This document shows positions 24,853 to 36,634 of a stretch of DNA of 64,000 nucleotides, piece by piece. The DNA is from Granulicella sp. L56 (GTDB taxonomy: Bacteria > Acidobacteriota > Terriglobia > Terriglobales > Acidobacteriaceae), in assembly GCF_009765835.1 (NCBI RefSeq), contig NZ_LMUS01000006.1:1322438-1386437 (forward strand). Reading direction: 5' to 3'. The notes under the pieces were generated by a model. The model saw only the letters and a program-made list of their open reading frames with translations, did not search any database and was not told the origin of the DNA. Within the stretch, counting starts at the first letter, position 1. Each line of letters opens with the position of its first letter. Both the position numbers and the translations under genes were made by a program.

Positions 24853-26527
24853 GTGACATGGCTGTCATTGATAGTAGAATCCGTCCATGAATGTCGTCCT
24901 GTGCACGCGACTCTTGCCGCCGTAGCACTTTTCGCAATCTCTGCTCTTTCCGCCCAGAATCTCACAGAGAATGTTCCGGAGCCTCCATCGCGGACCCTGG
25001 CTCCGGTTGCCAACCAGTCTGCCATGGTCAAGGAGCGCTATGCTCGTTTCACGGTGCTGACACCGGAACTGATTAGGATGGAGTGGGCTGAAGATAACCA
25101 GTTCGAGGACCATCCTTCCTTGATCTTCCTGAACCGCAACTTGCCCGTGCCACCGTTTAGCATGACGCAAAAGGGTGGAACGCTCACGATCCATACCGGC
25201 AAATTGCAATTGGTTTACTCCTAGCGAGCAAAGCCACTGGCTTCACACCGGGCAATCTGGCAATCACGCTAACGATGAATGGTAGGCCTGTCGTTTGCAT
25301 CCGGGTATACCCTCTACCGGCAATCTCGAGGGCACGACGCAACCCTGGACGGCGCGACGGGAGCCGAGCACCTGAAAGAACCGATCGGGCCGGGGCTCAT
25401 CTCACGCGACGGATGGGTTGTGGTTGACGACTCCGGCGCGCTCTTCGACTCTTCTAACTTCGACTTCAGCCACGGCGATCCCATGAGCCAACCATGGGTA
25501 CTTCCGCGACCATCCGGCACACGCGAGGACCTGTACTTCTTCGGCTACGGTCACGACTACAAGCAGGCGCTGGGCGATTATGTACGCGTCGCCGGCCGCA
25601 TCCCGCTGCCCCCGCGCTATGCCTTTGGAGCCTGGTGGTCCCGCTATTGGGCCTACAGTGATCAGGAACTGCGCGACCTCGTCACCGGCTTCCATGAGGA
25701 TAATGTACCGCTAGATGTGCTGGTGATCGACATGGACTGGCATAAGACCTTCGGCCGCCACTTCGAGATGAAGGATGCTTCGGGACATCGCAGGGGCTGG
25801 AGCGGATATTCCTGGGACACGGCGCTCTTCCCGGACCCCAAGGATTTCCTGTCCGAGTTGCATGAAGAAGGCCTGAAGGTAACGCTGGATCTTCATCCGG
25901 CCAGCGGCGTGCAGCCATGGGAAGATGCCTATCCGGAGTTCGCACGCAACATGGGAATCGATCCTGCGACCAAGCAATACATCCCATTCGATCTGACCAA
26001 TCGCAAGTTTGCGAAGAACTATATCGATCTGCTGCATCATCCGTTGGAAGCGCAGGGAGTGGACTTCTGGTGGCTCGACTGGCAGCAGCAGAACAACACG
26101 AAGACGGCTGGAGTGAACCCGACGTGGTGGTTGAACTACATTCACTTTACCGACCAGGAGCATGAGGACAAGCGCCCCCTGCTGTTCCATCGCTGGGGCG
26201 GCCTCGGCAACCATCGCTACCAGATCGGCTTCTCCGGAGACACGGTCTCCACCTGGGACTCTTTGGCATTTCAGCCATGGTTCACAGCCACCGCGGCCAA
26301 TGTAGGTTATGCCTTCTGGTCACATGACATAGGAAGCCACATGCCCGGCGTGGTCGCGCCGGAGCTCTACACGCGCTGGATCCAGTTCGGTATCTTCAGT
26401 CCTATTCTGCGCACGCACACTACCAAGAACGCTGAGTCCGAGCGCCGCATCTGGGCTTATCCGGAACCGTACAGCGACATCATGCGTACCGACTTCCAGC
26501 TTCGCTATGCCATGGAACCGTACATAT
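24853..26527 (+). pseudogene. Broken GH31 glycosidase gene: three frameshifts and 3' truncation
   Basis: The conceptual protein has an N-terminal signal-like stretch (ATLAAVALFAISALSAQ), a GH31 N-domain, and a barrel with LDVLVIDMDWH, the nucleophile region VDFWWLDWQQQ and the acid/base region FSGDTVSTWD. Continuity needs three one-base corrections: near 25222 (TCC-TAG, should continue YSxASKATGF), near 25289 (TTTG-CAT, restoring VWHPGIPSTGNLEG) and near 25339 (CGCA-ACC, restoring TLDGATGAEHL). The alignment to GH31 ends at QLRYAMEPYI (about 26527), where YT and a C-terminal sandwich are expected. From there the DNA is antisense to a truncated conjugation ATPase gene. The start is also unclear (GTG 24853 or GTG 24901). 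Three frameshifts within 120 bases could be decay or sequencing error; the truncation is not explained by read error. Confidence 0.85.
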
Positions 26528-27453
26528 GCCTCTTTACTAATGCCGATATAGCTGGTAGTGCTGAAACGGCTGCCGATTTCAGTCAGTATCTCTTCCAGCC
26601 TGCCGGCACTGATGACGGTCCGGAAGAGACCGACCATCGTGAGGTATCCATCGCGGATGCGATGGAGCAGGATCATGTACCGGACTAAATCTGTATAGCT
26701 TTGCTGCCAGAACGGTTCCTTGCCCTTGCCCCAGATCGACGTGATGATGGATGCAATGTTCAACGCCTGCGCATAGGCGTCGAGCGAGTTGTTTAGCGGG
26801 TTGTAGCGAATATTGCCGTCGAGCGAGACCTCGACATAATCTTGTTCCCGTCCACACCATTTAAGGATGCGCTGAAGCTGACGGCAGAGATCGCCTTTGA
26901 CTTCGAGCACGATGCCGGAGAGTCTGCGTGCGGGATCATCGGCGCGATACGCGAATAGCTGGCGCATGGCTGGCAGGATCAACCCATAGGTCTTCCCACT
27001 CCCGATTGAACCAAACGAAGCGATGCCGGTGTAGAGGCCGCGCTCGGGTATAGAAAGCCACTGCGGAGTTGGGCTTGGCTTCGGCACGAGCTGGCGATGG
27101 ACCTCCCCGAGTACCAGGGAAAGTTCTGTCCGGATATGCGGATCGGGATATGGAGGCAGGAATCCGACTGCCAGTTCCTTCTCACTCCTATATAGATGGA
27201 CATATAACAGAGAGAAGATCATGGAGCAGAGCAGAAATGGCGTCGAATACAGGAAGAGGCTAAAGCTCCAGACGACGGCGTGAAAAACCGGAGGCCGCTG
27301 TAGTGCGATCAAACGGAGCAGAGGATTCGTTGCGTCGATCGGAAACATACCATTCAGGACGATGCCGCAGGCTATGCTCAACCCCAGCGAGAGCAGGATG
27401 CGGTACTCGACCAGCGGGCGAATGAGTTTTTGGAGATGCGGGTGTTGACGCAC
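26528..27453 (-). pseudogene. Truncated type IV coupling ATPase (TraG/VirD4/TraD-like)
   Basis: The protein begins MRQHPHLQKL and has two hydrophobic segments (about 18-38 and 58-85), then a P-loop ATPase domain with Walker A GSIGSGKTYG (residues 148-157) and IVLEVKGDLCRQL. The family normally runs past 550 residues. Here recognisable sequence stops near residue 308 (TSYIGISKEAY), before Walker B and the all-alpha domain, and the frame continues into antisense of the GH31 remnant. It is a coupling protein by family, bringing relaxosome DNA to a type IV secretion channel, but in this state it cannot be active. GTG 27453 has GAGGAGG 10 bases upstream. It marks the left limit of the element. Confidence 0.8.
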
Positions 27454-27775: not shown

Positions 27776-27803
27776 CGGCGGTTTCCTCTCTGGCCGCGGT
27801 TGC

Positions 27804-27943
27804 GGCCTTTCTTGTACTTGTTTCGGGCCAACTTAGGTACCGGCTAAGGTCCATATCAAGTACTCACTTTGGCCAGGTCAGGTACAAGCTTTGGGCCGGA
27901 TGAGGTACCGAACTTAGACCTGACTCGGTACCAGATTTGAGTC
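27804..27943. repeat. Six GTAC-centred iterons, 22-23 bp period
   Basis: GTAC occurs at 27814, 27837, 27860, 27882, 27905 and 27928, i.e. at intervals of 23, 23, 22, 23 and 23 bp. Each GTAC is preceded at 10-11 bases by GGCC or a one-base variant (27804, 27826, 27849, 27871, 27894, 27917). Between repeats a CTT/TTT-containing segment recurs. The unit is about 23 bp, two helical turns, and not a multiple of three, so it is not a protein repeat. Arrays like this are typical of plasmid-type replication origins or multi-site operators. The array lies between the RHH-like gene and the replication-relaxation genes. Confidence 0.8.
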
Positions 27944-27950
27944 AATGGCG

Positions 27951-28027
27951 TGCCGGGGGTGGGAGTGACCAGCGCGGCGGAGCCGACGCGGAAGTGCGGA
28001 GCACTGGGGTCGCTCCCACCCCCGGCA
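27951..28027. repeat. 20-bp-stem inverted repeat adjoining the iterons
   Basis: Bases 27951-27970 (TGCCGGGGGTGGGAG...) pair with 28008-28027 (...CTCCCACCCCCGGCA) over 20 positions with a single G-T type mismatch. The loop is 37 bases (27971-28007) and very GC-rich, with possible internal structure. It begins 8 bases beyond the last repeat unit and ends 51 bases before the stop of the replication-relaxation gene. It could be an origin structure, an oriT-like nick hairpin or a strong transcription end. No T-run is present, which argues against an ordinary intrinsic terminator. Confidence 0.75.
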
Positions 28028-28078
28028 CATACCCCTCCCTGACCCCACCTACTTGCGCAACTCCTTGTATTTGCATGA

Positions 28079-29119
28079 CTAAACCTCTTCCTCTTGTGTC
28101 TGCTCGCGTGTCTGCTGACGTGTCTGTTCACCCTGCTGCGATGGCTTGGTCTGCCGGAGGCTGTAGATGGGATAGCTGTACGGAAGGACACGGGTGGTGA
28201 AGCTGACACGCGGGGAGTTCTGCAAAAATCGCTGCCGGATCCTGTCGGCGTTAGTGCTCTTGATCTCCCATGCCGCCTGAAGCGCCCTGTGTTCCAGTGA
28301 CGTATAAAGATGCTCTCCCTCGCGCAGCACCTCGAGATCGCGGGCAGTGCTGACGCTGCCTTTGGTGTCATACCGCTGGCTGGCGGCAAGGTATTCGAGA
28401 AAGTGATCGACACCGAGAGGCGTCATGGACGTAACACCACGCAAGCGGTCCGGAGGAAGAAAGCGGTTGAAGGAAGCCTTCGCCCGCGCCGAGTTGCTCT
28501 CTGTATCGGCGAGATAGATGAGTTCAAACTCACCGAGCGCCTCGAACAGCGGCTGGTACTGTTCGAGATAGCGTTCGAAGCGCGTGGCAGTGACCTGGCC
28601 TTCGTCGAAGAAGGTAAAGCGCGGGATGCCGGTATTGGAGACGAGGATGGGGAACCCATCGGAGAAGTACATCAACCGCCCGGCGTAGCTTCGGGGCAAC
28701 AACTCGGAACGGATGCCGCATTGGGTGGTGAAAAAATCGATCTTGCTGGCCTCATCTTCGAGCAGGTTGGTGTTTAAATTTGCGAGGATGAAGTCGAACA
28801 CCATGAGCCGTGACTTAATGTGTGCGTCGCCCTTGATACGGCGGTTCTGGGAATCGCGGCGACCCAATGCGGTATAGACCGGCTTCGAGGTCAGGTGATA
28901 GATATGGTGACCCCGGCCACACTCGATCACGCGGATGTGACGAAGGCGCGTCGCTTTTTCGAGAAAGCGTGTAGACAGAGCACCGCTCTCCCACTTCACA
29001 AAGTGACGGAACTGGCGACTCAGGAAATAACCGGAGTGAACGGCTATGAGATACAGGAAAGATGCCTCGCGTTCTAGATAGCCGACCGATTCGAGAGATG
29101 TTATTGGATCGTAATCCAT
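28079..29119 (-). CDS. Replication-relaxation-like protein (winged helix), copy 2
   Basis: The 346-residue protein opens with a winged-helix-like region (about 12-85): REASFLYLIAVHSGYFLSRQFRHFV, RFLEKATRLRHIRVIECGRGHHIYHLTSKPVY. The pattern of a first helix, an 'R-L-x-L' recognition region and a short wing fits the Replic_Relax family of plasmid and conjugative elements. The middle (100-215) alternates strands and helices like a nuclease-type core (GFPILVSNTGIPRFTFFDEGQVT). The end is a glutamine-rich tail (QQGEQTRQQTREQTQEEE). It starts 2 bases after the stop of the neighbouring gene of the same class, so the pair is translationally coupled. A role in replication or mobilisation is a family-level inference; there is no recognised HUH relaxase motif. 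Confidence 0.6.
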   Translation of the reverse strand: MDYDPITSLESVGYLEREASFLYLIAVHSGYFLSRQFRHFVKWESGALSTRFLEKATRLRHIRVIECGRGHHIYHLTSKPVYTALGRRDSQNRRIKGDAHIKSRLMVFDFILANLNTNLLEDEASKIDFFTTQCGIRSELLPRSYAGRLMYFSDGFPILVSNTGIPRFTFFDEGQVTATRFERYLEQYQPLFEALGEFELIYLADTESNSARAKASFNRFLPPDRLRGVTSMTPLGVDHFLEYLAASQRYDTKGSVSTARDLEVLREGEHLYTSLEHRALQAAWEIKSTNADRIRQRFLQNSPRVSFTTRVLPYSYPIYSLRQTKPSQQGEQTRQQTREQTQEEEV

Positions 29120-31278: not shown

Positions 31279-31692
31279 CTAAGCCGCGTCATCCTCCGTG
31301 ATGGGCTCGGCGTCGAGGTTCTCGGGCCGTGAGTTCTCAGGCTGAGCCAGCTTCCTGACGATGCTGGCGCGTATCTCCCAGCCCCGGCGCTTGACGGTCG
31401 CTTTCTTCTTGTCGTCGCCGACCTCAGCATCGAACTCGGTGCTGCGCAGCTCGCCTTCGATCTCGACGTAGTCGCCCTTCCTGAGGTTCTTTGCGTAGTC
31501 GGCGGCTTTGCCGAAGGCGACGATGCGGTGCCACTCGGTGTGGTTCACCCACTGCTGCGTCTGCTTGTCCTTGTAACCGGACTTGGTGGCCAGTGACAGG
31601 ACGGTGAAGGTATTCTGCTGTTTGGTTGCGAAGCTCTCGGCGTCCTTGCCGGTGAAGCCTTTCAGAGTGACTTTGTTTTCGTAGAGTGCCAT
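31279..31692 (-). CDS. ssb: Single-stranded DNA-binding protein
   Basis: The 137-residue product contains an OB-fold typical of SSB: NKVTLKGFTGKDAES, NTFTVLSLATKSGYKD, EWHRIVAFGKAADYAKN and KGDYVEIEGELRSTEFD, ending in an acidic tail ITEDDAA. The usual DDDIPF protein-interaction tip is missing. It binds ssDNA, probably in replication or conjugative transfer of the element rather than as the chromosomal SSB. ATG 31692 has CAAGGAG 6 bases upstream. It directly follows leader copy 1 (31730-31950), a sequence repeated ahead of the DNA methylase gene. Confidence 0.88.
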   Translation of the reverse strand: MALYENKVTLKGFTGKDAESFATKQQNTFTVLSLATKSGYKDKQTQQWVNHTEWHRIVAFGKAADYAKNLRKGDYVEIEGELRSTEFDAEVGDDKKKATVKRRGWEIRASIVRKLAQPENSRPENLDAEPITEDDAA

Positions 31693-31729
31693 GGTGTTTC
31701 TCCTTGTTTGTATTTGCCCGGATTGCCCT

Positions 31730-31950
31730 CGGGACACTCCTGCGCGAAGCGACGCGAGGTGCCCCGCTCCCAAGTGCCGAGATGTGCTTTCTGCGGAGGC
31801 TCCGAAGAAAAAATCTCGCCCGTAATTTGGGCCGCAGCCGCAGGGAGATTTTTTCTTTGGAAACCCAGACCCGCAGGGCGCACGCAGGGCGAAGCAGAAC
31901 ATCGACGTGCCGCAGGGCGCGGGACAAGCACCGAAGCGAGTGACCGAGGG
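31730..31950 (-). promoter_or_regulatory. Repeated leader, copy 1 (ahead of ssb)
   Basis: This 220-base stretch resembles 34037-34235. Shared blocks in the same order on the plus strand include CGGGACAC, CGCGAAGCGACGCGAGG (one base differs), CTCCCAAG, a TGTGC-TT segment, a hairpin, then AAACCC, CCGC-AGGGCG, GAAGCAGAAC, CCGCAGGGCG and CCGAAGC. In this copy the hairpin is GAAAAAATCTC (31807-31817) with GAGATTTTTTC (31845-31855), a perfect 11-bp stem whose T-run would act as a terminator in the minus direction. This suggests an attenuation or antitermination leader common to two genes of the element. Confidence 0.65.
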
Positions 31951-32281
31951 TGAGGAGGGAAAATACGGGAGAGGTGGCGCTTTACGGAAACACCTGCCTG
32001 AAGGGCATCTATATAAGATAAGGATGCCGTCGCAATCAGGAGACACCCCACCCTTGCTCTGCCATGGTTCCGGCGGCAAAAGCAGAGAGGGGATGACCAT
32101 GTTGCCGGATGGTCCGCATCGTCTTCCGTGCTCCGCCATGCGAAGGACCTGTCTTTGGAAGACGGAGTCCAAGGCGATATGTACCGTTCCAGTTCGGAGG
32201 CGGTCTGGGGAAGAAGTAGATCAGCTCCTATATATAGTTGGGAAGTATGCGTCAGTATCGTCTGAGCACCTGCCTGCTGGC
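31951..32281. other. Non-coding stretch with AT-rich promoter-like sites
   Basis: No gene is supported in either strand. Two AT-rich patches, CTATATAAGATAAGG (about 32009-32023) and CTATATATAG (about 32229-32238), are possible -10 regions for minus-strand transcription of the ssb operon, which starts with leader copy 1. Nothing else is recognisable. Confidence 0.45.
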
Positions 32282-32625: not shown

Positions 32626-32958
32626 CTACGACGGGAATAGCCAGGCCATGAAGTTAACCGCGCCGATCGCCATGCCGATGCCGAAGACGATGCCGGCGAG
32701 GGTCTTCTTCGATTGGCCCTCGCCGTAGGCGAACATCAGACCGCCGACCACAATCGCCACCAGGCTGAGCCCTTGCGCGATCGTGCCGGTAAAGGCGGTC
32801 TTGAGGACGCCCACGGCGTTGTCCCATGGATCGCTGCCGGTGCTTTGTGCGTAGACAGGCAATGCCGCGAGGAACATCAACGGTGGTACCGCCCATCTCC
32901 GGTACCGCATGAACACTCGCCGGAGAGGTGGTCTTTTGGTGGGAAGAATGAATTGCAT
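32626..32958 (-). CDS. VirB2/TrbC-like conjugative pilin subunit
   Basis: The 110-residue protein has a long signal (FMRYRRWAVPPLMFLAALPVYAQ) followed by two hydrophobic segments (about 60-82 and 86-108: LSLVAIVVGGLMFAYGEG, LAGIVFGIGMAIGAVNFMAWLF). The glycine-rich hairpin with polar SKKT turn is the VirB2/TrbC pilin pattern. The mature pilin would start near residue 40 and assemble in the inner membrane. ATG 32958 has AAAGGAG 6 bases upstream. It is the only other recognised mating-channel gene in the window besides the broken coupling ATPase; the genes that normally follow (VirB3, VirB4 and so on) are not present. Confidence 0.75.
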   Translation of the reverse strand: MQFILPTKRPPLRRVFMRYRRWAVPPLMFLAALPVYAQSTGSDPWDNAVGVLKTAFTGTIAQGLSLVAIVVGGLMFAYGEGQSKKTLAGIVFGIGMAIGAVNFMAWLFPS

Positions 32959-33281: not shown

Positions 33282-33995
33282 TCACACCCGCGTGGGAATG
33301 CCGGAAGATCGCTTTTGAGCGACCCTCTGGTGGACTCTTATTAAGCGATCACTGGCGTGCTGGAAATATGCATCGTCCATCTCTATGCCGATGTACTTGC
33401 GGCCTGTGAGCGCTGCAGCGGCACATGTGCTTCCGCTTCCCGCGAACGGATCGAGTACGGTCTCACCTTGAAGAGTGAAGGTGCGAATGAGTGGTACCAG
33501 TGCCGGTATCGGCTTTTGCGTGGGATGGAGCTTATTGCCGCTGTAGGACATCTCCATCACATCGCCAAGCGGCTGCTTCGGCAGTGGCGGCCTGCCCTTG
33601 GCCAGCAGGAATGCCTGCTCGTGCTGATAGCGGAGGAACCTGCTCTTCGAGCTGTAGCTCTTACGAAAGACAATGTGTCCGACCGGATGAAAACCAGCTT
33701 TGCGCCACGCTGCGAAGAAGGCATCGATCTTCGTCCACCCGTAGAACATCACAGCTATGCGATCCTGCTTGAGTACCCGATACGCTTCTGCCATCGCGGG
33801 TTTGAGCCAGGTGTCATCGACATCGTTCTGAATCGTGCGTCCTGTGCGGTCGCGATAGTTCACGAGATACGGTGGGTCGGTGAGGATGAAATCGACGCTG
33901 TTCGCTGGCATCTGCCGCATCACGTCAATGCAGTTGCCATGAACGATCTGGTTGGTTAACTTGCTTTGTGTAGAAACTACGTTCGTGGTTGCCAT
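33282..33995 (-). CDS. DNA adenine/cytosine-N4 methyltransferase, beta-class
   Basis: The 237-residue protein has motif IV DPPY (residues 41-44 region, ILTDPPYLVNY) ahead of motif I (LDPFAGSGSTCAAAALTGRKYIGIE, near the C-terminus), the beta-class order found in N6-adenine and N4-cytosine enzymes such as CcrM and many phage or plasmid orphan methylases. A loop HEQAFLLAKGRP precedes HPTQKP, also family-typical. No restriction endonuclease partner is adjacent, so it is likely an orphan protecting or marking the element. ATG 33995 has AAAGGAG 9 bases upstream; extending the frame into leader copy 2 gives non-conserved text. The recognised base cannot be predicted. Confidence 0.88.
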   Translation of the reverse strand: MATTNVVSTQSKLTNQIVHGNCIDVMRQMPANSVDFILTDPPYLVNYRDRTGRTIQNDVDDTWLKPAMAEAYRVLKQDRIAVMFYGWTKIDAFFAAWRKAGFHPVGHIVFRKSYSSKSRFLRYQHEQAFLLAKGRPPLPKQPLGDVMEMSYSGNKLHPTQKPIPALVPLIRTFTLQGETVLDPFAGSGSTCAAAALTGRKYIGIEMDDAYFQHASDRLIRVHQRVAQKRSSGIPTRV

Positions 33996-34036
33996 CTCTG
34001 AAATCTCCTTTTTGGTCCCATGTCTCTGAAGGCGAC

Positions 34037-34235
34037 CGGGACACACCACGCGAAGCGATGCGAGGGGTCCGCCTCCCAAGGCAAGCGTGTGCATTTTCGG
34101 AAGGTTCGGGAAATCTTTTGCGTTCGTTGCATAAAGATTTACTGAAAGCCGAAACCCGCGAGGGCGGCTGTCAAGCCGAAGCAGAACCCGCGCAGTCCGC
34201 AGGGCGGCGGTTAAGACCCGAAGCAGTGTCCGGAC
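34037..34235 (-). promoter_or_regulatory. Repeated leader, copy 2 (ahead of DNA methylase)
   Basis: This segment is the second copy of the leader at 31730-31950, with CGGGACAC, CGCGAAGCGATGCGAGG, CTCCCAAG, then hairpin AAATCTTT (34111-34118)/AAAGATTT (34133-34140), then AAACCCGCG, AGGGCGG, GCCGAAGCAGAACCC, CCGCAGGGCGG, ACCCGAAGC. The stem differs in sequence from copy 1 but keeps position and A/T character, so structure seems to be maintained. It lies 42 bases upstream of the methylase start, like copy 1 before ssb (38 bases). Confidence 0.65.
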
Positions 34236-34928: not shown

Positions 34929-35035
34929 GACCCTGAATTTCGACCTATCGTCTGGCTATAGGCACTACGAAGTGCGATTGACCGCAGTTCTAACTCGCAC
35001 GAATGCCAGAAAGATGTGCCGATAGGAGGCGGTGA

Positions 35036-35245
35036 ATGCAGCCACAAGATGACGATCAGATGAAAAGGGCCGAGATCTTCGAACCTTTACTGGACAGCCA
35101 GCAGGCTGCGGAACTGATGCATGTGCATCCGGAGACAGTAAAGCGGCGGGCGCGGCGGGGAGAGATCCCCGGCCTGAAATTCGGGAAGCTGTGGCGTTTC
35201 CGCGCCTCCGGCCTGGAGCAATACGTGCGCAATTTAATGCAATAA
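35036..35245 (+). CDS. Excisionase-family helix-turn-helix protein
   Basis: The 69-residue protein contains the HTH_17/excisionase pattern LLDSQQAAELMHVHPETVKRRARRGEIPGLKFGKLWRF, i.e. a winged helix with recognition segment PETVKRRAR and a wing GLKFGKLWRF. Such small proteins bend DNA at att sites or regulate integrases. ATG 35036 has AGGAGG 7 bases upstream. It is followed by the integrase gene on the same strand after 74 bases, a usual xis-int pairing. A regulator of transfer genes is the alternative. Confidence 0.82.
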   Translation: MQPQDDDQMKRAEIFEPLLDSQQAAELMHVHPETVKRRARRGEIPGLKFGKLWRFRASGLEQYVRNLMQ

Positions 35246-35319
35246 TTCGCGACCTCAGCCGCTGAAAATATGGCACCATCAAACTCAGCGGTCTGTGGCC
35301 AACGAAACGGGAGGAATTC

Positions 35320-36552
35320 ATGTTTCGAAGGACACGATATCAACAAGGAATGATCGACCGCGTAAAGAGGAAGCAAGGTCCCGACTGCTGGATCTTCCGC
35401 TGGCGTGAGATGGATGCCAGCGGGAAACGGGTTCGCCGCAAGGTGGTTCTCGGAACGATCGAGAAGTATCCCACCGAGTCGAGCGCCCTGAAGGCTGCCG
35501 AGTCTTTACGTGTCACCGTCAACGAGGAGCAGCCCCGGTTCCCTCAGCAGCCGATTTCGGTGGCCGCTCTGATCACACACTTCAAGCACCATGAGCTGGG
35601 TCCCATGCAGGAAGATGATGAAGGCCGGGCATACTCCACGCGGGTCGTCTACAAGGACGTTCTCCGGTTGTATGTTGAGCCGAAGTGGGGCGACGCCGGG
35701 CTGCGAGAGGTGCGGGCAGTAGCCGTGGAGAAGTGGCTCCGCACGTTGCCGCTGGCCAAGGGCACCAAAGCGAAGGTTCGCAATATTATGAGCGTTCTGT
35801 TCAATCACGCCATCCGTCACGAGTTCCTGCCGCAGGGCGCGAACCCGATCACGATGGTGCGGCAGAGCGCGAAGCGGGTGTCTGTCCCGGACATCCTTGA
35901 TGTTGCGGAGATAGTGGCGTTATTCGAGGAACTCTCGCACCGGGAACGGGTGATGGTGTTGCTCGACGCACTGACTGGACTTCGTCGCGGAGAGCTGATG
36001 GCGCTGAAGTGGCAGGATGTCAATTTCAAGGAACTGGAGCTTTCCGTCACGCGTTCGATCTACCGGAAGGTTGTGGGACCATGCAAGACGGAGGCATCGC
36101 AGAAGCCGGTTCCTCTCGATCCCTGGATCGCCGAGGAACTGCTGACCTGGAGACGGGCCACTCCCTACAACCAGTCGGAGGACTGGATCTTCGCCAGTAC
36201 GCGAATGAAGGGAAAGCAGCCCTACAGCCCCGACACCATCCTGATGCGGTGTATCCGTCCTGCGGCGACGCGGGCGAAGATCACCAAGCGCATCGGATGG
36301 CACACCTTCCGGCGTACCCTCTCGACCTTGCTGAAGGCCAATGGAGAGGACGTCAAGGTGGTACAGGAGCTGTTGCGTCACGCGAGCGCGAAGATCACGC
36401 TCGATGTTTACGCGCAGGCGGTGACGCCGGACAAGCGGCGAGCGCAGTCGAAGGTAGCGGAGATGCTGCGGGCGGGAAGCGGGACGAAGGAAAAATCCTT
36501 ATTGGACCCTTCTGGACCCTCGGCCATTTCTGAAGAGGCTGTAAGTGATTGA
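35320..36552 (+). CDS. Tyrosine recombinase/integrase of the element
   Basis: The 410-residue protein has an N-terminal SAM-like core-binding region (about 75-180: EVRAVAVEKWLRTLPL) and a catalytic domain with R in TGLRRGELMALKW, H-x-x-R in HTFRRTLSTLL, H in VQELLRHASAKITLDVY and the tyrosine Y in LDVYAQAV. All four signature residues are seen, so it should be active. It cuts and rejoins DNA at att sites. ATG 35320 has GGGAGGAA upstream. Its stop is 5 bases from the 3' end of tRNA-Val, pointing at the gene, the typical arrangement for integration into a tRNA 3' end. Confidence 0.9.
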   Translation: MFRRTRYQQGMIDRVKRKQGPDCWIFRWREMDASGKRVRRKVVLGTIEKYPTESSALKAAESLRVTVNEEQPRFPQQPISVAALITHFKHHELGPMQEDDEGRAYSTRVVYKDVLRLYVEPKWGDAGLREVRAVAVEKWLRTLPLAKGTKAKVRNIMSVLFNHAIRHEFLPQGANPITMVRQSAKRVSVPDILDVAEIVALFEELSHRERVMVLLDALTGLRRGELMALKWQDVNFKELELSVTRSIYRKVVGPCKTEASQKPVPLDPWIAEELLTWRRATPYNQSEDWIFASTRMKGKQPYSPDTILMRCIRPAATRAKITKRIGWHTFRRTLSTLLKANGEDVKVVQELLRHASAKITLDVYAQAVTPDKRRAQSKVAEMLRAGSGTKEKSLLDPSGPSAISEEAVSD

Positions 36553-36557
36553 AAATA

Positions 36558-36634
36558 TGGTAGGCACGAGGAGACTCGAACTCCTGACCTCTACCGTGTC
36601 AAGGTAGCGCTCTAACCAACTGAGCTACGCGCCT
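36558..36634 (-). tRNA. tRNA-Val (GAC anticodon)
   Basis: Read on the minus strand from 36634 to 36558 the sequence folds as a tRNA: acceptor AGGCGCG with CGTGCCT (one G-T pair), D-arm GCTCAGTTGGTTAGAGC, anticodon loop CTTGACA with anticodon GAC (valine), T-arm AGGAGTTCGAGTCTCCT, and encoded ACCA end at 36558-36561. It is the likely attachment site of the integrase at 35320-36552, since that gene ends 5 bases from the tRNA 3' end. A second copy of the 3' half that would mark the far end of the element was not found in this window. Confidence 0.95.

Follow-up and report, generated by a model that had tools for sequence, protein, structure and literature searches.

A probable origin of transfer, composed of a branched hairpin and an 11-bp box array, in an integrative conjugative element family of Acidobacteriaceae

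The window analyzed in the present work, i.e., a stretch of 64,000 nt from contig NZ_LMUS01000006.1 of Granulicella sp. L56 (the source genome, hereafter the own genome), harbors on its minus strand a branched hairpin and an array of short boxes, which together probably represent an oriT, the site at which the relaxosome assembles, in a family of Acidobacteriaceae integrative conjugative elements (ICEs) of the VirB/VirD4 type. The site sits in a decayed ICE, of which the window copy is a remnant. Sequence comparison establishes the gene order around it, the covariation of the hairpin, the 11-bp lattice of the boxes, a box type that tracks residue 19 of an RHH-like protein, and RHH-less copies carrying two box types. 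The first-pass annotation of this region had left open a replication origin, an oriT, or an operator; the comparative evidence points to an oriT, with an operator as a likely second role, and yielded no positive evidence for a replication origin.

On the minus strand of the window, the genes follow one another in the order N6/N4 DNA methyltransferase (33282–34094), VirB2/TrbC pilin (32626–32958), an ORF with an SSB domain (31279–32172), P0003 (29122–30162), P0002 (28079–29119), the hairpin, the array, P0001 (27470–27775), and a truncated VirD4-like coupling protein gene (26320–27453). The latter encodes 377 residues (678 in intact relatives) and was assigned through NCBIfam and sequence identity: the match to conju_CD1115 (4.9e-8) is far under the model cut-off, the N-terminal part shows 82% identity, and an intact homologue matches TraG-D_C. 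The remnant lacks virB3 to virB8, absent beside the pilin gene, as well as the second half of virD4 and virB11. A GH31 glycosidase ORF (25279–26688, with a TIM-barrel domain; region 24853–26688) runs into the end of the truncated virD4-like gene and overlaps it, which looks as though a deletion had removed the end of the element. The element had been described as integrated at tRNA-Val. The tyrosine integrase gene (35320–36552, plus strand) abuts the tRNA-Val gene (36558–36634), but a search of the window for another copy of the end of this tRNA gave nothing longer than 13 bp, and the element is decayed. The small ORF adjoining the integrase gene (34965–35321, minus strand) has no Pfam match and might encode an excisionase, judging from its position.

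The own genome harbors a second copy of the ICE (OWN2; G000:C6 near 2.585 Mb, region 2565001–2605000; L044 and L045), which looks complete; 16 bp separate the end of its integrase from a tRNA-Ala gene. The ICE of the cultured strain Edaphobacter lichenicola M8US30 (L066) also looks complete. In intact relatives, Pfam recognized VirB2, VirB3, VirB4, VirB6 (TrbL), VirB8, VirB9 (CagX), VirB10 (TrbI), VirB11, and a VirD4 of 678 aa, with an ORF of about 300 aa and no Pfam match at the place of VirB5. Because of these matches, the elements form a family of ICEs that are equipped with a secretion system of the VirB/VirD4 type, and the fact that they carry a coupling protein and a T4SS supports the oriT reading. 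The protein scan was carried out on a composite of OWN2, G012, and G034 and covered the same-strand ORFs, very short ones excepted; none of these proteins matched a Pfam relaxase family, nor was PF03432 found in the own genome. The ICEs of G012 (L050) and OWN2 (L045) encode both an N6/N4 and a Dcm-type methyltransferase, possibly for anti-restriction.

In intact relatives, the gene order is P0003, P0002, hairpin, array, RHH-like gene, virD4, and virB11. A tblastn search retrieved homologues of P0003, P0002, RHH, and VirD4 together in 41 out of 46 named loci, all from Acidobacteria or genera thereof, and VirB11 as well in 37 of these 41. The loci without the full set are one where the contig ends (L070), one in which VirD4 was not found (L110), a degraded one (L111), and two RHH-less ones (L100 and L105). 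Probing 72,556 plasmid records for P0003 relatives did not retrieve any match at E 1e-3.

The array (27804–27931, minus strand) lies directly 5' of the P0001 gene and consists of 12 boxes on a lattice of about 11.4 bp, six of them GTAC (27814–27928) and six GG[A/C/T]C in the minus-strand reading. The six GTAC tetranucleotides first noticed at intervals of 22–23 bp are exactly where they had been reported (27814, 27837, 27860, 27882, 27905, and 27928). Six GTAC boxes chained at 22/23 bp occurred in none of 20,000 dinucleotide shuffles of region 27776–28078, the longest shuffled chain being of three, once, and was absent from the rest of the 64-kb window. The boxes described as GGCC-like and lying ahead of each GTAC are GG[A/C/T]C boxes that alternate with it; each occupies the middle of a GTAC interval, so that the real period is halved to about 11 bp (about 11.4 bp here and 11 bp in those relatives that have Gln at residue 19 of the RHH-like protein, the Q class). 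The array and its spacing, which the first-pass annotation had proposed to look for in related elements, are kept as an 11-bp-phased array in near relatives, along with the hairpin and the gene order, and GATC is often the box sequence. Autocorrelation, restricted to arrays longer than 75 bp, gave peaks at lags 11, 22, and 33 in the Q/H class (28 of 29 arrays, z 17–22) and at lags 11/12, 23, and 34 in the K class (10 of 13 arrays, z 6.6–9.6). On account of these peaks across relatives, the unit of the array is about 11 bp, that is, one helical turn.

P0001 (101 aa) appears RHH-like from its residue pattern and is proposed to be an array-binding relaxosome accessory factor and an autorepressor. 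It has no Pfam match; its positional counterparts in distant ICEs gave sub-cut-off matches to RHH_1 (E 0.014) and RepB-RCR_reg (E 0.0024). A search by sequence for PDB relatives of the RHH-like protein gave only designed or unrelated proteins. Residue 19, a Lys in P0001, would lie in the DNA-reading strand according to the RHH pattern. An RHH start is present in 42 loci (40 named loci, the window, and OWN2), 13 of which have K at this residue, the other 29 having Q or H. GTAC is found in the array of all 13 K loci (1–6 boxes) and in that of one Q/H locus out of 29 (L099, one box), while GATC is found in all 29 Q/H arrays and is missing from eight of the 13 K ones. Lys goes with GTAC and Gln/His with GATC in 42 out of 42 loci, counting one tie (L094, with one GTAC and one GATC) that was scored as GTAC.

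On the P0003 tree, the K/Q label changes seven times, with at least four of the changes being imposed by supported branches, where all four independent pairs agree (sign test, p 0.125); on the RHH tree, a single change suffices. Because of this difference between the two trees, the array and the RHH gene seem to be exchanged among ICE backbones as a unit. Pairwise distances were compared over 37 loci: array distances went with those of RHH given P0003 (0.74) and little with those of P0003/P0002 given RHH (0.12–0.13, with 43 and 22 of 1000 permutations as high, respectively), whereas hairpin distances went with those of P0002 given RHH (0.50) and not with those of RHH given P0002 (−0.03). The divergence of the hairpin would hence track P0002/P0003 and that of the array RHH; this is support and not proof, since physical linkage alone could produce such a pattern. 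If the code holds, the intact ICE of the own genome (OWN2, Q-class) should not recognize the array of the window remnant (K-class), and the family would offer a natural protein–DNA specificity code, with one residue class, two box types, and repeated switches.

RHH proteins of the ParR/ParG/omega type bind phased repeats 5' of their own gene, and the array might in principle be a partition centromere bound by the RHH-like protein. We consider this very improbable: no ParA/ParM-type match was found among the scanned ICE proteins, and the genes that come next are virD4 and virB11.

The second part of the probable oriT is the hairpin (27950–28028, minus strand), a conserved branched structure with a 21-bp outer stem, whose core is GGGAGCGACC/GGTCACTCCC, and two inner hairpins; it is the proposed site of relaxase action. 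The single mismatch and the 37-nt loop of the original description stand; the arms (27950–27970 and 28008–28028) are of 21 nt instead of 20, and the loop holds two small hairpins, judged from the aligned relatives, which makes the structure branched. Region 27936–28078 (minus strand, as RNA) folds better than 200 of 200 shuffles (z −3.5). The hairpin is intact in 42 of the 46 named loci, the exceptions being two with an insert (L072 and L083), one whose contig ends before the hairpin (L070), and a degraded one that keeps the core with a changed loop (L111).

The insert of L072 and L083 lies in the P0002–RHH intergenic region and presumably carries an IS110-like transposase; the two ICEs are different, yet the hairpin is interrupted at an identical point. 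Its own left end can refold a hairpin with the same core, and a similar loop is found in L111.

The hairpin comparison embedded the 42 intact named loci, the window, and OWN2 (44 in all; G028, the same as L100, was omitted). The alignment (A3) has 42 of these 44 rows, L079 (nearly equal to L076) and L099 (the sole Q locus with a GTAC box) having been left out by hand. In these 42 rows, 93.2% of the pair cells are paired and 13 pairs are changed on both sides; for the second inner hairpin, the alignment count is 92.7% of cells paired and three pairs changed on both sides. The covariation score is 0.299, versus 0.109 for column shuffles and 0.045–0.085 for slid partners. Furthermore, G.T and A.C each occupy 15 of the 796 cells of the outer stem, with no G-U preference; since an RNA under selection should favor G-U over A-C, the hairpin looks like a DNA-level structure.

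Other identities were tried for the hairpin and rejected. An Rfam search retrieved only microRNA families, far under their gathering scores, and at gathering score the window contains tRNAs only. A plain intrinsic terminator was discarded, because the coding strand lacks a T-run downstream of the 3' arm; the terminator scan, whose loop limit of 8 makes it blind to this hairpin, was empty there. A genome-wide REP-like repeat was ruled out, since the two ICE loci are the sole places of the own genome where the hairpin occurs; this result was also set against the concern that the repeats might be scattered over the genome.

A covariance model detected the hairpin in 52 of the 399 genomes of the class (E <= 0.01) and, at E <= 1e-4, in 29 of the 300 genomes of the family. 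Out of the 25 hairpin places with E <= 1e-10 (best strand), 24 adjoin P0002 and/or RHH homologues, G003 being the exception. Four weak matches were read with 20 kb around them: two from the same family (L158 and L159) and two from other families (L161 and L162) have a GGGAGCGACC-type hairpin between divergent P0003/P0002 relatives and a small RHH-like gene, after which VirD4 and VirB11 relatives come (identities of 33–37% for P0003, 33–35% for P0002, 42–44% for VirD4, and 40–47% for VirB11). In these four loci, the hairpin is present and no array is visible by eye. For this reason, the hairpin may be the older part of the site and the array a later elaboration.

Five further weak matches of the class scan, in other families (L132, L133, L136, L139, and L141) are GGGAGCGACCC-type hairpins, within 1.5 kb of which none of the P0003, P0002, and VirD4 query genes was recognized; L136 has two such hairpins 434 bp apart.

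Copies of the element without an RHH gene were also found. In L100 (Acidobacteriaceae bacterium TAA 166), L105 (Granulicella sp. dw_53), and L153, there is no RHH or VirD4 homologue in about 21, 21, and 14 kb, respectively. L100 harbors an integrase, an HTH_17 protein, a 387-aa protein, P0003, P0002, the hairpin, and the boxes, followed by type III restriction genes, with a VirB4-like gene and further ORFs beyond the integrase; L153 is without P0003. Within 230 bp after the hairpin, the boxes are four GTAC and six GATC in L100, three and seven in L105, and two and two in L153, and 23 of these 24 boxes fall within four neighboring positions of the 11-bp phase. At least two boxes of both types are present in these three copies versus one of 42 RHH loci (L090), the count being made over 230-bp stretches in the former and arrays of 47–173 bp in the latter; in random 230-bp stretches of the same loci, 71–119 of 2000 hold at least two of each box when phase is ignored. 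The RHH-less locus L160 and the remnant L146 stand outside this two-box count. By analogy, we read the RHH-less copies as putative mobilizable elements that would address both ICE types; the VirB4-like gene of L100, the lack of P0003 in L153, and the count in random stretches speak against this reading. The site offers a route to find mobilizable elements in Acidobacteriota.

As regards the 387-aa protein (L063:13905–15065; L198–L217), it has no Pfam match and is present in 33 of 398 family genomes. It adjoins integrases in several of the 20 loci, with P0003/P0002 within 1.5 kb only in G028, and a fragment of it adjoins a weak hairpin match in G248.

These data bear on the possibility that the region is a control region only, in which the array would serve the RHH-like protein to repress the operon that encodes it, while the hairpin would act in the P0002–RHH intercistronic mRNA through attenuation, processing, or termination. 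The array indeed immediately precedes the 5' end of the RHH gene, and co-directional genes flank the hairpin; moreover, according to PMC8136818, several RHH accessory factors repress their own promoter. Nevertheless, the stem has no G-U preference, the coding strand has no T-run after the 3' arm, the hairpin and the boxes are retained in the RHH-less copies, downstream of which no RHH gene was found, and the divergence of the hairpin tracks P0002/P0003 and not RHH, so that we regard control alone as unlikely.

The candidates for action at the hairpin are the products of the two genes that precede it. P0002 (346 aa) is a conserved protein of a family without name and a candidate relaxosome component, whereas P0003, the candidate relaxase, has a winged helix (residues ~92–177) followed by an alpha/beta domain; no homology was found between the two. 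The 3' end of P0002 contains a 12-bp tandem repeat in three copies (28096–28131), coding for a Q/T/R-rich tail. In nine sequences down to 30% identity, the invariant residues of P0003 are H196, D197, D224, E226, K228, P270, D271, R273, E298, and K312. The winged helix is MarR-like (VIA Z 11.1 over 77 residues, rmsd 1.8 Å), and it is the only part matched when the full-length protein is probed with Foldseek and VIA. The C-terminal domain (model pLDDT 86.7) gave only weak VIA rows, headed by XisH (5.0), BsaWI (Z 5.0), PaqCI (4.9), EcoT38I (4.6), and YaeQ (4.6), with MspJI later (4.1) and an unrelated protein at rank 10; no relaxase was among the VIA matches listed, and the best Foldseek E was 0.30, also weak. 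Most of the best rows are folds of the restriction-endonuclease type, XisH and YaeQ included, and the modeled domain weakly resembles the PD-(D/E)XK type.

The first-pass annotation had called these two genes replication-relaxation-like, which the Pfam family does not support: PF13814 (Replic_Relax), the family of MOBC relaxases (PMC5357655), matched none of 12 P0003 members and none of 10 distant or near P0003/P0002 proteins, and a weak similarity is confined to the winged helix of P0003. The family has no match over cut-off in the own genome and is over cut-off in 11 of 247 phylum genomes. Aligning P0003 with nine acidobacterial Replic_Relax-match proteins by hhalign involved the winged-helix part only (probability 50%; 0.1% for the C-terminal part alone). 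Since P0003 fails the PF13814 sequence test, we would say by analogy that it may work like MOBC, not that it is MOBC. The relaxase may also be another, unrecognized protein that is encoded elsewhere or supplied in trans.

Iteron-like arrays and hairpins occur at plasmid origins, and the region might likewise be the replication origin of the excised element, with initiator-bound iterons or a rolling-circle double-strand origin at the hairpin. The SSB genes of the element would fit, and the two roles may coincide, as in ICEBs1, where a single relaxase works in transfer and also in replication (PMC5357655). However, no initiator family was found beside the array or among the scanned ICE proteins, no AT-rich stretch stands out in 500-bp steps, and the array covaries with an RHH-like protein of about 100 aa adjoining virD4; a replication origin is, therefore, improbable, somewhat more so than a control region.

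On the oriT reading, binding, nicking, the identity of the relaxase, repression, and transfer are what we infer, and the following scenario can be depicted. P0001 would fill the 11-bp-phased boxes cooperatively along one helix face; its occupancy would mark the element as its own and would repress the RHH–virD4–virB11 operon. The array is probably a set of phased sites for an RHH accessory factor which also represses its own operon. P0003, P0002, or both would be recruited by P0001 to the branched hairpin; there, P0003 might use its C-terminal domain to nick one strand in or near the conserved core, and the RHH–DNA complex would pass the strand to VirD4 for export. A bolder and tentative proposal, to which we give somewhat less than an even chance, is that P0003 (with P0002) represents a new class of conjugative relaxase, with a winged helix and a PD-(D/E)XK-like domain, outside the known MOB families and acting at a class-wide branched-hairpin oriT; ICEs would swap an array-plus-RHH "address" cassette (Lys–GTAC or Gln–GATC), and RHH-less elements would carry both addresses in one 11-bp lattice to ride either ICE type.

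An oriT is an already known kind of site. A relaxase candidate that goes unrecognized, combined with a branched hairpin found across the class, an 11-bp lattice whose box type switches with one residue, and two-address copies, was not met in the openly licensed literature, among the matches listed; there, again among the matches listed, no title describes an acidobacterial ICE or its oriT. Conjugation seems to be little studied in Acidobacteriota, an abundant soil phylum, and the site provides a testable candidate oriT for ICEs without a recognized relaxase. If P0003 does nick, tools seeking the known MOB families miss these ICEs.

As for known systems, the order in R388 is oriT, trwA (RHH), trwB (coupling protein), and then the HUH relaxase TrwC. 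Here too, the probable oriT is followed by the RHH-like gene and the coupling protein gene; unlike R388, VirB11 comes next and no HUH relaxase was found among the proteins scanned.

MOBC relaxases are PD-(D/E)XK-like and related to restriction endonucleases; in pAD1, the binding site of TraX consists of five direct repeats located about 70–120 bp from nic (PMC12857230). The array and the distant hairpin described here resemble that arrangement of repeats and a distant nic; unlike MOBC, P0003 and P0002 miss PF13814, and the repeats track the RHH-like protein rather than the relaxase candidate.

A further close likeness is with the pWBG749 family (PMC8136818). In this family, the RHH factor SmpO is encoded beside the oriT and recognizes 5'-GNNNNC-3' sites, a single residue switches its specificity (F7K), the oriT type is incongruent with the backbone phylogeny, and a branched ssDNA hairpin is possible. 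The acidobacterial elements share an RHH-like gene beside the site, boxes (GGTACC and GGATCC) that fit 5'-GNNNNC-3', a residue-linked switch, an incongruent backbone tree, and a branched hairpin. They differ in that SmpO binds two sites, versus a lattice of about 12 boxes here, and in that the staphylococcal plasmids encode a putative relaxase, SmpP, downstream of SmpO. Finally, in the same source, non-conjugative staphylococcal plasmids carry two or three oriT mimics, mostly of different subtypes; the RHH-less copies with several box types are comparable to them, with the difference that L100 and L105 keep P0003/P0002 and have both box types in one array.
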